A DNA stretch of 27,741 nucleotides, taken from a virus. Numbering within the stretch: position 1 is the first letter of the stretch; every line of letters starts with the position of its first letter. Both the position numbers and the translations under genes were made by a program. Of this stretch, positions 1-6,022 are shown piece by piece. The notes under the pieces are model-generated. The model ran no database searches. It had not been told where the DNA came from and saw nothing but the letters and a program-made list of their open reading frames with translations. Location: positions 1 to 27,741 of the IMG/VR virus record IMGVR_UViG_3300028844_004098. The stretch is one strand, 5' to 3'.

Positions 1-483
1 AATAAGATCAGCCTTAGGAACGCCAACCTTGGGAACGCCAACCTTGGGAACGCCGACCTTGGGAACGCCTACCTTAGGAACGCCAACCTTAGGAACGCCA
101 ACCTTTGGAGCGCCAACCTTGGGAACGCCGACCTTTGGAACGCCGACCTTTGGAACGCCAACCTTGGGAACGCCGACCTTTGGAACGCCGACCTTAGGAA
201 CGCCAACCTTTGGAGCGCCCGCCTTGGGAGCGTTCATGGCGTCAACGATTACATTAAGACTCTGCACCTCGAAAAATGGTCAATCAGCTACACGAGCCAT
301 GTGATCCAAATTGGTTGCGAAAGACATTCGATTGATGAGTGGCGGGAATTTGATGACGCTCGAATTTCGAGAATGGACAGAACCCATGCATTGAATTTTT
401 GGCAAAAGTACAAGGGCCACGTATTCGCGACCATTGAGCTTTCCCCGGCCAAGCCGACCAGACAAGACGAGGCTGCGGAATGA
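1..483 (+). CDS. Pentapeptide-repeat protein, C-terminal part (5' end outside window)
   Basis: This frame is open from base 1 to the stop at 481-483 with no start inside the window, so the N-terminus lies upstream. It encodes fourteen consecutive A(N/D)LXX pentapeptides (19-228), such as NANLG, NADLW and NAYLR. Leu is fixed at the central position and a small residue two before it, the signature of the right-handed quadrilateral beta-helix. A non-repeat C-terminal domain of about 85 residues follows, with the segment IGCERHSIDEWREF. Pentapeptide-repeat proteins of this general type are often phage or bacterial proteins of unknown role; some (Qnr, MfpA) mimic DNA. Function here is unknown. It is followed by an ATGA overlap with the next small gene. 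Two other frames across the repeats are also open (GTPTL on +, KVGVP on -), but only this one matches a known fold and runs on into a coherent domain. Confidence 0.85.
   Translation, partial: NKISLRNANLGNANLGNADLGNAYLRNANLRNANLWSANLGNADLWNADLWNANLGNADLWNADLRNANLWSARLGSVHGVNDYIKTLHLEKWSISYTSHVIQIGCERHSIDEWREFDDARISRMDRTHALNFWQKYKGHVFATIELSPAKPTRQDEAAE
19..228 (+). repeat. 15-bp tandem repeat array (14 units)
   Basis: Fourteen 15-bp units with consensus GGAACGCCAACCTTG (phase arbitrary) are tandemly repeated without interruption. Variation is confined mainly to the Asn/Asp codon (aac/gac), the last codon (ggg/tgg/agg) and Asn/Ser (aac/agc). The array encodes the pentapeptide-repeat coil of the surrounding gene. 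The near-identity of units at the DNA level suggests recent expansion by slippage or unequal recombination. Confidence 0.9.
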
Positions 484-2732: not shown

Positions 2733-2788
2733 TGGTACCCAAGGCCGGACTCGAACCGGCACGACCGTTAAGTCGGGGGATTTTGAAT
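2733..2788 (-). other. att core: 3' half of tRNA-Leu(CAA)
   Basis: Read on the minus strand, this is the 3' part of a class II tRNA. It starts at the anticodon loop TTCAAAA (anticodon CAA at 2785-2783), then has the 3' strand of the anticodon stem, a long variable arm with stem CGAC/GTCG, a perfect T-arm (GCCGG TTCGAGT CCGGC), the acceptor strand CTTGGGT and an encoded ACCA. Sequence beyond 2788 does not complete the anticodon stem, D-arm or 5' acceptor, so it is not a functional tRNA gene. Integration at this core would restore the 3' end of the host tRNA gene. Confidence 0.88.
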
Positions 2789-2857
2789 TCTATCGACATG
2801 CCCTAAGTTCAAGAGCTTGCGCCAATCCAAATACACGGACATACCGGAAACGTATAG

Positions 2858-2931: not shown

Positions 2932-3087
2932 CTAAAATAGAACGATTAGCTTTACGACACCGCCCAAAATGAGAACCAGCATCGCGGCGATATAGCAAGC
3001 GACAGGAAATCTCAGGTTACCTCCGGCATGGCGTTCCGTCTCTTGGTTCTCATGCCACTCGCGAGAATACCTAGGCTTCCGAGGCAT
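2932..3087 (-). CDS. Small C-terminally anchored membrane protein (51 aa)
   Basis: The ATG at 3087 follows a strong AGGGAGG ribosome-binding site located just after the stop of the upstream gene. The first 28 residues are hydrophilic (MPRKPRYSREWHENQETERH), and residues 29-51 form one hydrophobic helix (segment YIAAMLVLILGGVVKLIVLF) running to the C-terminus. It is the last gene of the leftward cluster. Topology suggests a tail-anchored inner-membrane protein; function is unknown. Confidence 0.65.
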   Translation of the reverse strand: MPRKPRYSREWHENQETERHAGGNLRFPVACYIAAMLVLILGGVVKLIVLF

Positions 3088-3103
3088 CGGTCAGGCCCTC
3101 CCT

Positions 3104-3187
3104 TTATCGGTTAATCCAAATAACTAAGGCCAAGAGAAACAACCAACTCACCAGGATCAGGTAAATTGCAGCTTCACCACCTGTCAT
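3104..3187 (-). CDS. Single-helix membrane peptide (27 aa)
   Basis: The ATG at 3187 overlaps the stop of the upstream gene (ATGA). The peptide is almost entirely one transmembrane helix: MTGGEAAIY then LILVSWLFLLALVIW then INR. It is followed by a strong ribosome-binding site for the next membrane protein. Size and composition fit a small phage membrane peptide (toxin-like, exclusion or regulatory); which of these cannot be told. Confidence 0.55.
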   Translation of the reverse strand: MTGGEAAIYLILVSWLFLLALVIWINR

Positions 3188-3447
3188 CCCTCAAGCCCTC
3201 CATCAGGAGAGATAGAAGCCTCCCACTCCCGGGGCTTGGGTGGATCACGGTGTTCCTTGAGGACGCGGAGGGCGACAACGAGGTCACGACCAGGCAAATC
3301 GCTGAGAAACCCCCATTCGACACCTCGGGCCGCGCCTTCCAAAGAATCTCTGGGCCCCTTAAAGGCCACCTCTACTATCGTCCCTGGATGCACCGGACAT
3401 TCGCCGCCATTCCAACCGTGCCATTCGCCGTCGTTGTAATCGGTCAT
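3184..3447 (-). CDS. Conserved-type small phage protein (87 aa)
   Basis: The start at 3447 is preceded by AGGGAGA at good spacing. The protein begins MTDYNDGEWHGWNGGECPVH and continues with a TIVEVAFKG stretch, suggesting a small beta-rich domain. This N-terminus (short acidic segment, then GxWHGWNGGxCPVHP) resembles small accessory proteins that I recall from many proteobacterial phages, but I cannot name a family. It is coupled by ATGA to the membrane peptide downstream. Confidence 0.75.
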   Translation of the reverse strand: MTDYNDGEWHGWNGGECPVHPGTIVEVAFKGPRDSLEGAARGVEWGFLSDLPGRDLVVALRVLKEHRDPPKPREWEASISPDGGLEG

Positions 3448-3458
3448 TCAGAGTCTCC

Positions 3459-3680
3459 CTATCGTGAAGTTGAAAGAACAGAACGTTCCGGGTAGATCGG
3501 GCCAAACCCTGCAGCCAACGGCCCAAGATAAATGGCACCGCCGCGCCTATATTTTTCCACACCCACCGCGAAAAGCCAGGGCTTCCACATCAAAACGCAT
3601 CCAAGATTTCGGACTACCCGAAACGTTGCGAAGCCGCGAAAACCCGCATGGCGAAAATTGGTCTCATCACTCCACGCCAT
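3459..3680 (-). CDS. Small protein of unknown function (73 aa)
   Basis: The frame lies between two better-supported genes of the leftward cluster, and its stop sits just before the next gene's ribosome-binding site. The C-terminal half (MWKPWLFAVGVEKYRRGGAI followed by YLGPLAAGFG) looks like a compact beta-rich or membrane-associated domain. The start is uncertain: 3680 (MAWSDET) has only a G-rich run immediately upstream, and an internal ATG before WKPWLF would give 43 residues. Confidence 0.5.
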   Translation of the reverse strand: MAWSDETNFRHAGFRGFATFRVVRNLGCVLMWKPWLFAVGVEKYRRGGAIYLGPLAAGFGPIYPERSVLSTSR

Positions 3681-3690
3681 CCACCCGCCC

Positions 3691-4239
3691 CTACTTGTGT
3701 CCGTTGAAGTTGAAAGCCAATTTCCCCGGGTCAGCCGGATCGCGCTTAGTGTTGCCGGTCCACTTCTTCACCCAATCACGCGGCACGCGATGAGGTAGGT
3801 CCTTCTCATCCAGCATCTCTTCTATCTTTGGCATGAACTCGCGCGGCGGCATTGACCCGTGCCAATAGCCGACGATCACTTTGGCCTGCTCTTCGTTCGG
3901 CTGGTTGTACCGAATGTTCCCACCTTTGCGCGGTTCAAGAGTTGCATCAGCCATAGGCGTGAGCCCCCGCACCTTGTCCAGGTCGCTCGACTTTGACGCA
4001 TCTAAGGGTGCATGACCCAGAACCTCGAACGATGGTGTCAACGCGCTCAGCCTCCGCATATCGACGGCGGTCAGCAGCTTCGGTTGCACCATGACAATCG
4101 TGTCTTCGGGTCGGAACGCCAGCGGTGCGATCTGTTTGTCTGGCAGCAGCGCAACGACTTGGCCGGGCGTCCAGAGACGATCCGCCCCCGCCGCCAGAAG
4201 GACGCCGCTTTGCGCTTCTGTTCCGATTCCATGTCGCAC
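3691..4239 (-). CDS. Protein of unknown function, first gene of leftward cluster (182 aa)
   Basis: The frame is open from a GTG at 4239, immediately after an in-frame stop, to 3691. The C-terminal third (NEEQAKVIVGYWHGSMPPRE onward, then PHRVPRDWVKKWTGN) has convincing protein character. The N-terminal half contains ordered hydrophobic segments (QVVALLPDKQIAPLAF). No family is recognised. The GTG lacks a clear ribosome-binding site and two other frames are also open over 4071-4276, so the start is uncertain. As the gene nearest the operator cluster on this strand, it is probably regulated from there. Confidence 0.55.
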   Translation of the reverse strand: MRHGIGTEAQSGVLLAAGADRLWTPGQVVALLPDKQIAPLAFRPEDTIVMVQPKLLTAVDMRRLSALTPSFEVLGHAPLDASKSSDLDKVRGLTPMADATLEPRKGGNIRYNQPNEEQAKVIVGYWHGSMPPREFMPKIEEMLDEKDLPHRVPRDWVKKWTGNTKRDPADPGKLAFNFNGHK

Positions 4240-4258
4240 TTATGTGTGTCTGCACGAT

Positions 4259-4344
4259 CAAATCTATAATTTCCATCCAAATCTATACTTTCGCCGTTGA
4301 CTATAGATTTAAAACTATAGAATATAGATTGGCAAGTATAGATT
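4259..4344. promoter_or_regulatory. Divergent operator cluster (five AAATCTATA-type sites)
   Basis: The spacer between the - strand gene ending upstream at 4239 and the + strand gene starting at 4361 holds five related motifs. AAATCTATA lies at 4260-4268 and 4279-4287; the inverse TATAGATTT at 4302-4310; and TATAGATT at 4323-4330 and 4337-4344. Opposed copies form inverted repeats, and the cluster overlaps candidate promoters in both directions. This is the layout of a phage operator bound cooperatively by a dimeric repressor. Which protein binds is unknown. Confidence 0.7.
4297..4325 (+). promoter_or_regulatory. Candidate promoter for the + strand gene at 4361
   Basis: TTGACT at 4297-4302 is a good -35 element. 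TAGAAT at 4318-4323 is a near-consensus -10 but with a short 15-base spacer. The elements overlap two of the TATAGATT sites, so binding there would block transcription. On the other strand, TTGCCA followed 17 bases later by TTAAAT could serve the leftward cluster. Confidence 0.4.
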
Positions 4345-4360
4345 CAAAAGGGACCGACCA

Positions 4361-4882
4361 ATGCGCATCGCCAGCCAGCACAAGTGGAAAGACGCAGAGT
4401 ACCGTCCGCAATTTGAGTGGCCCGGCGAAACGCTTGTACAGTGGGGCGGCAAGGGGGTGGTCTTGGGCCTTAACTCTTACACGACAGCATTCTTCGAAGC
4501 GTTCCCCGAAGACAAAATGAATGCTGGCGGCTTCATTCGCGGCGAAGGAAAGACCATAGCCGACGCAGAAAGCGACGCATGGACAAAGTTCGAACGGCAG
4601 AGCAATTGCCAGCACCTTTGGGGCCGGGAGAACTACCGCAATGGTGGCCAGCTTTGTCGGCACTGCAGAGCCTTTCAGAGTGGCGTTCTCAAGCCCGTCT
4701 CCACCCTCGGATCGTGGCGCACGCCAATCGAGTATTTCGAAGAGCGCATGATCTATGGCCCGGAGGGAATTGCCGAGTACGAGGCGCTGATGGAAAGGCC
4801 ATATGTCGAAAGCAAATATGTGAAAAAGCTGCGCTTAAGGCGCTCCGTGTTTGGAGTTACCGAGCGCCCCAATGAAACCTGA
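4361..4882 (+). CDS. Zinc-ribbon-like phage protein (173 aa)
   Basis: The ATG at 4361 follows AAAAGGGA at good spacing. Residues around 60-70 (GFIRGEGKTIADAESDAW) form a helical segment. They are followed by a likely metal site, NCQHLWGRENYRNGGQLCRH with the next residue Cys, giving a C-x-H ... C-x-x-C arrangement. The remainder is basic. It is the only + strand gene in this part of the window and is controlled by the divergent operator region, so it is probably expressed in a different phase from the late genes. A regulatory or nucleic-acid role is possible but not shown. Confidence 0.75.
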   Translation: MRIASQHKWKDAEYRPQFEWPGETLVQWGGKGVVLGLNSYTTAFFEAFPEDKMNAGGFIRGEGKTIADAESDAWTKFERQSNCQHLWGRENYRNGGQLCRHCRAFQSGVLKPVSTLGSWRTPIEYFEERMIYGPEGIAEYEALMERPYVESKYVKKLRLRRSVFGVTERPNET

Positions 4883-4903: not shown

Positions 4904-6022
4904 CTAGGAGGCCACTCCAACACGGGCGCGGGATATCTCGCCATCCTCGCGGTGGTGAACGATTGAAACAAGCGAACGCCCACCACTAAAGGCGCTTGTG
5001 TACGCAAATGCGTCTCGGGGAATAATGGTCCCGACGCTCTCAAATCTCATCCCGCCGATTTCTTTGACCACCTCATGGTGGACGTGTCCCGATAGGGCGA
5101 TGCGGTGTTTTGTTCTTCCCCAAATCTCAGGAAACTCCGCAGCGGCGAAATGCACGAGGCGGTCGGGCTTAGCCCTGTCTCCGTGGTGCAGAAATATCAT
5201 GTTCGCGCCGAACTCATGCACGTAAAAGTCGGAGGCGTCCTGGACAACAGTCACGTCGTCCGTATCAGCGTAATATTCCGATAGCGCCAAGGTGACTGCG
5301 TGATGAGCGGTCATGTCGTGGTTTCCCCGGCATCCGCGATAGATGACATGGTTGTACTTCTGTCGGAGTGTTTCGATAGCCCACTTCATCACCGCCACAG
5401 CGCGGCGCAAAATCATGAAGAACCGGCTGTCAACGTCCAGTTGGTGCCCGCTCTGGGGTGTAACGTTCCGCTGATCGTCGTTGTGCGTCAGGTCGCCCAG
5501 CTGGGCTAAAAGCGCAGTGCCAGCATCCGGCGTGATGGACACGAGCCGTCCAAAGGTTTCCTGAAACACCTTCTGGGCCTTCTTCGTGTCCCAGTCCTCC
5601 CCAACCTCCTCTTGGTCTGTCAAAAGACCCATGTGCAAATCCGCAACCGTGAATGTTGCCATGATGTCCATCGGCGGTTGTTTTGGGGCGGATAGAATGG
5701 GCGGTGGAACTGTTTTGATAGCGGCCCTGATGGCCTCCGCGTATTCGTCAGGGTCAGGCAGGGCGGGCTTGGTGGAATGCATGACGCTATGCGTCACGGT
5801 TCCGTCGCGGTGGGTCTTTGTCCAAACAACGCTTGCGGGAGTATCAGCCCCGATGGCGTTCGCCCCCGACCCTAGTGCGCTATCTGCCCTATCCCACTTC
5901 CGGGCGCGCTCTAGTAGGGACTTGACGCCCGAAGCCGATCCCCCCATCGCGCGGGCTACTTCATCGCGCGTCATGCCCTGCTGCTGTAAGCGTTGCGCCT
6001 CGGCCTGCTTTTCGGTCTTCAT
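4904..6022 (-). CDS. Calcineurin-like metallophosphoesterase with N-terminal HTH-like segment (372 aa)
   Basis: The metallophosphoesterase motifs appear in order: DLH (128-130), GDL (176-178), GNHD (233-236), HHGD (279-282) and GHVHH (312-316). All the usual metal ligands are present. The first ~45 residues (QRLQQQGMTRDEVARAMGGS onward) look like a helix-turn-helix of the type seen in phage and transposon proteins, joined by a flexible linker. The substrate is unknown; such enzymes may act on nucleic acids, nucleotides or phosphoproteins. It is the last gene of the late strand, after the lysis genes, and converges with the + strand gene at 4361. Confidence 0.9.
   Translation of the reverse strand: MKTEKQAEAQRLQQQGMTRDEVARAMGGSASGVKSLLERARKWDRADSALGSGANAIGADTPASVVWTKTHRDGTVTHSVMHSTKPALPDPDEYAEAIRAAIKTVPPPILSAPKQPPMDIMATFTVADLHMGLLTDQEEVGEDWDTKKAQKVFQETFGRLVSITPDAGTALLAQLGDLTHNDDQRNVTPQSGHQLDVDSRFFMILRRAVAVMKWAIETLRQKYNHVIYRGCRGNHDMTAHHAVTLALSEYYADTDDVTVVQDASDFYVHEFGANMIFLHHGDRAKPDRLVHFAAAEFPEIWGRTKHRIALSGHVHHEVVKEIGGMRFESVGTIIPRDAFAYTSAFSGGRSLVSIVHHREDGEISRARVGVAS

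Follow-up and report, generated by a model that had tools for sequence, protein, structure and literature searches.

A probable operator of six half-sites beside a predicted resolvase-like gene in a temperate phage, with counterparts in Rhodobacterales genomes

Background

In Tn3, resolvase bound at res autoregulates both tnpR and tnpA (PMC7157771). The half-site recognised by a protomer of the gamma-delta resolvase measures about 12 bp, and the BPs intergenic region carries divergent promoters with operators (PMC4557955). Here we describe a cluster of short half-sites between two divergent phage genes, one of which encodes a predicted resolvase-like protein (g182) and for which Tn3 resolvase acting at res between divergent genes is the nearest working model. 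The window that we analysed comprises an entire IMG/VR virus record (27,741 bp).

Results

The record represents part of the genome of a temperate tailed phage. The genes for the large terminase, portal, major head and tail fibre proteins are encoded on the minus strand together with a metallophosphoesterase-like exonuclease (4904-6022), and a tyrosine integrase is encoded on the plus strand (1571-2623), convergent with the g182 operon. The probable attP core (2737-2800, minus strand) corresponds to the 3' part of a tRNA-Leu; ARAGORN detected no complete tRNA in the record, and a relative of the integrase adjoins a complete tRNA-Leu. Repeats of GTGGGACT flank the core at about 2653, 2667 and 2863, and these repeats, lying to either side of the tRNA-Leu segment (2653-2873), are candidate arm sites of the integrase. 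Because the integrase and attP lie in one piece, the record suggests a non-integrated form of the phage. Relatives of the integrase are found in genomes of Rhodobacteraceae (Ruegeria, Phaeobacter, Roseivivax and others), so that the host probably belongs to this family. Phages recorded from Microcystis and Pseudanabaena (L216, L217 and L218) encode integrases that share 57-58% identity with this integrase of Rhodobacteraceae type, and alphaproteobacteria that live alongside the cyanobacteria may be their true hosts. At the left end of the window (1-239), 15-bp tandem repeats form the start of a leftward ORF whose product contains pentapeptide repeats of the PKVGV type. An array of 15-bp repeats likewise terminates a related contig (L004, 16081-16201), where it adjoins a homologue of ORF 301-483.

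The segment from attP to the exonuclease (2932-4882) differs in the relatives with the nearest exonuclease. It contains leftward small genes headed by g182 (3691-4239, minus strand; 182 aa, GTG start) and one rightward gene (4361-4882, plus strand). Downstream of g182, three small ORFs on the minus strand span 2932-3680 (3459-3680, 3184-3447 and 2932-3087), two of which have no Pfam match; judging from spacing and strand, they presumably form one operon with g182 as its first gene. The divergent gene encodes an accessory hypothetical protein of 173 aa with conserved Cys and His residues, whose homologues are hypothetical proteins on megaplasmids (Acetobacter, Bosea, Variovorax and Vibrio) and in a 462-kb jumbo phage.

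Between the divergent ORFs 3691-4239 and 4361-4882, the motif TATAGATT is present five times in both orientations, all within 4261-4344; 0.13 copies are expected in the record, and none of 100 shuffles reached five. In a local control of 3000 dinucleotide shuffles of 4259-4344 or 4240-4360, any 8-mer reached at most three copies. Exact counts and shuffles thus confirm the five copies in 86 bases reported in an earlier note on this DNA, and a scan for further copies, as it proposed for the complete genome, found none outside the cluster in the 27,741-bp record. With a weight matrix, the best site elsewhere (13.0) is far weaker than those in the cluster (17.6-20.7). The count of operator sites in the note holds for the exact copies, and the full set is six half-sites in a fixed layout, completed by a degenerate copy, TATAGAAT, that was missing from its list. 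Read on the minus strand towards g182, the cluster (4259-4344) consists of six 8-bp half-sites in the order + + + + - -, with steps of 14, 7, 14, 22 and 19 bp. In the coordinates and strands of the record, these are half-site 1 (4337-4344, +; AATCTATA in the direction of g182), half-site 2 (4323-4330, +), the degenerate half-site 3 (4316-4323, +; ATTCTATA towards g182), half-site 4 (4302-4309, +) and the two inverted half-sites 5 (4280-4287, -) and 6 (4261-4268, -). Half-sites 4 and 5 form a central dyad of 32 bp, AAATCTATA-N14-TATAGATTT (4279-4310). An Rfam search gave no match. The candidate promoters that the earlier note placed over the copies are not established, as a consensus promoter scan identified no sigma-70-like promoter at the element.

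Elsewhere in the record, between attP and the last leftward gene, an inverted repeat AAACTATAAACTG/CAGATTATAGTTT (2888-2919) is one base off the operator motif; it may function as a terminator, as an accessory site of attP or as a weak operator.

The motif does not appear to belong to a widespread operator. Scans of viral contigs for three copies yielded, for the most part, loci that were AT-rich or made of tandem repeats, plus a few unrelated clusters in phages of balanced GC content, and no three-copy direct cluster was detected in 394 Rhodobacteraceae genomes. It was also absent upstream of the homologues of the divergent 173-aa gene, and with the homologues on megaplasmids and in the jumbo phage lacking the motif, the product of 4361-4882, named in the earlier note as a protein to test for binding, is not likely to be the regulator. 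A tie to the integrase or excisionase was rejected because the motif is absent at the loci of their relatives.

Three full-length homologues of g182, 23-35% identical, were found in Rhodobacterales genomes. Two of them, at loci L233 (31%) and L234 (25%), were detected in a search of 394 Rhodobacteraceae genomes, and the third, L253, when the family profile was later searched at the level of the order (E 4.6e-35). No new member was found in 385 alphaproteobacterial genomes or by genus searches, and the family sample comprises only four full-length members. The order-level draw also gave a relative that lacks the N-terminal part (L254) and, in other Rhodobacterales genomes, weak or broken fragments with stop codons (L255-L258).

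The only convincing gene common to the window and the L233 and L234 loci is g182. At all three, the g182 operon is convergent on the integrase, which is of a different kind in each, and this arrangement suggests a role in the control region of temperate phages. The upstream neighbour is divergent from the g182 homologue in the window and L234, as well as in L253 (ORF 2252-2833 on the plus strand, the homologue on the minus strand). In L233, an ORF runs across both ends of the 38,070-bp contig (L233/L239, G237 contig C4), which is therefore probably circular and also encodes a large serine recombinase; given this circularity, the neighbour is probably divergent there too. The earlier view of an operator cluster in a divergent region that looks like a control switch is supported, the switch being that of the operon adjoining the integrase.

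All four full-length g182 genes adjoin an AT-rich divergent intergenic region with a common operator layout. In the direction of g182, this layout consists of four direct copies (steps of 14/15, 7 and 14/15 bp) followed by two inverted copies with a step of 19/20 bp. The motif differs by locus (TTTMTAC in L233 and TCTACA in L234) but the layout is unchanged, with steps of 14, 7, 14, 22 and 19 bp in both the window and L233, and of 15, 7, 15, 18 and 20 bp in L234. The L233 counterpart of the central dyad, TTTTATAC-N16-GTATAAAA, is also 32 bp long.

Using a motif-blind architecture score, which measures the mutual similarity of six 8-mers at set offsets and orientations, we scanned 559 kb on both strands, and the top three places were the regions upstream of the three g182 homologues of the window, L233 and L234. 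With a fixed template of the window spacing (14, 7, 14, 22, 19), L233 scored 66.8, the best of its 12-kb locus, a value reached by none of 5.1 million background positions (maximum 49.0). L234 does not fit the exact vector of the window (31.1) and scored 66.2 with a template allowing small jitter, where none of 2.9 million background positions reached 66 (maximum 59.6, a tandem-like repeat). The jitter ranges were set after L233 and L234 had been seen, from which only the fixed-template test of L233 and the test of L253 are exempt. In L253, used as a hold-out, the best architecture hit on either strand of the 3.5-kb locus directly precedes the g182 homologue, with steps of 15, 7 and 15 bp followed by two inverted copies 19 bp apart and CTACA/CTACG cores. 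Its score of 52.6 was reached by none of 1000 shuffles of its own stretch and is below the large-background maximum of 59.6, and the hit counts by its position and by own-sequence shuffles, not genome-wide. The layout was not found at L254, the relative without the N-terminal part. On these sequence comparisons, the operator is very likely tied to the g182 family.

A different explanation of the repeats is that a host silencer or nucleoid protein of low specificity covers an AT-rich promoter island (28% GC in a genome of 56.5% GC) and that the repeats are a by-product. This is extremely improbable, since the exact repeats are far above composition-matched shuffles and the spacing is kept between loci with different motifs.

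In systems with excisionase-regulators of the P2 Cox and TorI type, a promoter close to attP carries several short boxes in either orientation. The half-sites might be boxes of this kind or replication iterons, as the phage encodes an excisionase-like protein of 65 aa (1187-1384, with a weak PHROG match) and has the related motif TATAGTTT beside attP at 2888-2919. We give this hardly any weight: loci with a 43-57% identical excisionase have no TATAGATT and almost no TATAGTTT, and the layout tracks g182, whose relatives adjoin other integrase types.

The tie to the family would also be expected if g182 were merely a conserved target gene and another phage protein, for example a repressor outside the window, read the operator; a strictly linked second regulator could do so, and the record is incomplete (27.7 kb) with no repressor seen in it. 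This we consider unlikely, as the loci represent different phages with different integrases and no other convincing gene is common to the window and L233 or L234. In addition, a drifting motif in a constant layout is what would be expected of a reader co-evolving with its site, and g182 is itself predicted to resemble resolvases, which bind arrays of half-sites.

The kind of protein that g182 represents was approached through alignments and structure models. None of the four members has a Pfam match up to E 10, PF00239 included, g182 has no PHROGs match, and neither g182 nor its profile gave a convincing match to the sequences of solved structures. The four-member alignment shows M-x-x-G-x-G at the start, G18, D46 and G75-H76-x-P78 among the conserved positions. 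AlphaFold models, built from three-sequence alignments, reached a mean pLDDT of 63.6 for g182 and 71.9 for the L233 protein, and both have an N-terminal part of alternating strands and helices and three C-terminal helices, predicted in g182 at 116-127, 132-142 and 154-161 with low to moderate confidence. For each model, the top 11 PDB chains in VIA-align are serine recombinases (gamma-delta, Tn3 and Sin), with Z scores of 5.1-6.4 over 82-86 residues for g182 and 6.5-7.1 for the L233 protein, the tool being confident from 8; alignments of the L233 model that cover both domains exist with large rmsd. The best viral match in Foldseek is a resolvase (prob 0.87, E 0.14). Against PDB, Foldseek gave no match below E 0.001 for either model, and the fold claim therefore leans on the VIA-align ranking and on a profile comparison, in which the four members align collinearly with four resolvases (E 9.8e-5, probability 58%). 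Taken this way, the predicted resolvase-like fold of g182 has moderate support.

The catalytic-serine motif RVS of resolvases and DRLxR are absent from all four members, whose N-termini read MRHGIGTEAQ, MKMGIGTPAQ, MIVGLGEAED and MKWGFGHKRY against the resolvase GYARVST. Because GYARVS and DRLxR are missing in every member, g182 would act at most like a resolvase without chemistry, and we do not classify it as a recombinase. This also bears on the idea that g182, or a recombinase partnering it, acts on the element as a recombination site (a res, resolution or inversion site). The presence of six half-sites between divergent genes, with a resolvase-like gene beside them and a central 32-bp dyad, does recall Tn3 res, but with the loss of both motifs, the order ++++-- in place of three inverted pairs and a single site copy in the record, such a function is very unlikely. 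The best reading of the models and alignments is that g182 represents a small, previously undescribed family of phage proteins in which a serine-resolvase-like domain at the N-terminus is followed by a helical (HTH-like) part at the C-terminus. A literature search of incomplete coverage did not find an inactive resolvase-like phage regulator described.

Discussion

Our results suggest that the 86-bp element is probably the operator of g182, which would be a catalytically dead resolvase-like autoregulator. That g182 reads the operator is quite probable, and the statement in the earlier note that no recognisable repressor is encoded next door is then probably wrong, as g182 is predicted to be resolvase-like with a C-terminal helical DNA-binding part. 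Several g182 protomers would probably bind the six asymmetric half-sites, and the bound protein may wrap or bridge the DNA by analogy with resolvases at res. The conserved 14-7-14 spacing, the 19-bp step and the central dyad point to a defined multi-protomer complex. With divergent promoters presumably overlapping the half-sites, g182 would set transcription of its own gene and the downstream small genes, and also that of the divergent gene 4361-4882. Repression is marginally the likelier effect.

A broader scenario is speculative, and we would sooner doubt it than adopt it: an undescribed family of dead resolvase-like proteins could serve as switch regulators of Rhodobacterales temperate phages, the six-half-site array folding into a synaptosome-like repression complex, while motif and recognition part co-evolve and so keep related phages from regulating each other (immunity groups). 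Should g182 act as proposed above, phages would have converted a serine-recombinase scaffold into a regulator of transcription alone, and a protein without Pfam or PHROGs recognition would gain a function. A natural series of matched protein and operator pairs would also be at hand, allowing tests of how the specificity of the resolvase DNA-binding part changes under a fixed higher-order assembly.

Among the known systems, the locus is similar to the L5-type mycobacteriophage repressor with its stoperators and to the BPs repressor in having a probable phage regulator with asymmetric or variant half-sites. Unlike here, those repressors belong to other protein families and their sites are scattered genome-wide, whereas this phage has a single cluster. 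Short boxes in both orientations are shared with the P2 Cox and TorI systems; in contrast to these, the excisionase-like gene is separate here and its relatives lack the motif, and g182 is not an excisionase. The resemblance to Tn3 and gamma-delta resolvase (TnpR) at res lies in the predicted resolvase-like protein and in half-sites placed between divergent genes. It differs in that g182 lacks the catalytic motifs and heads a phage operon instead of belonging to a transposon, and in that Tn3 res is built of three subsites that each consist of two inverted half-sites, while the array described here has four direct and two inverted half-sites.
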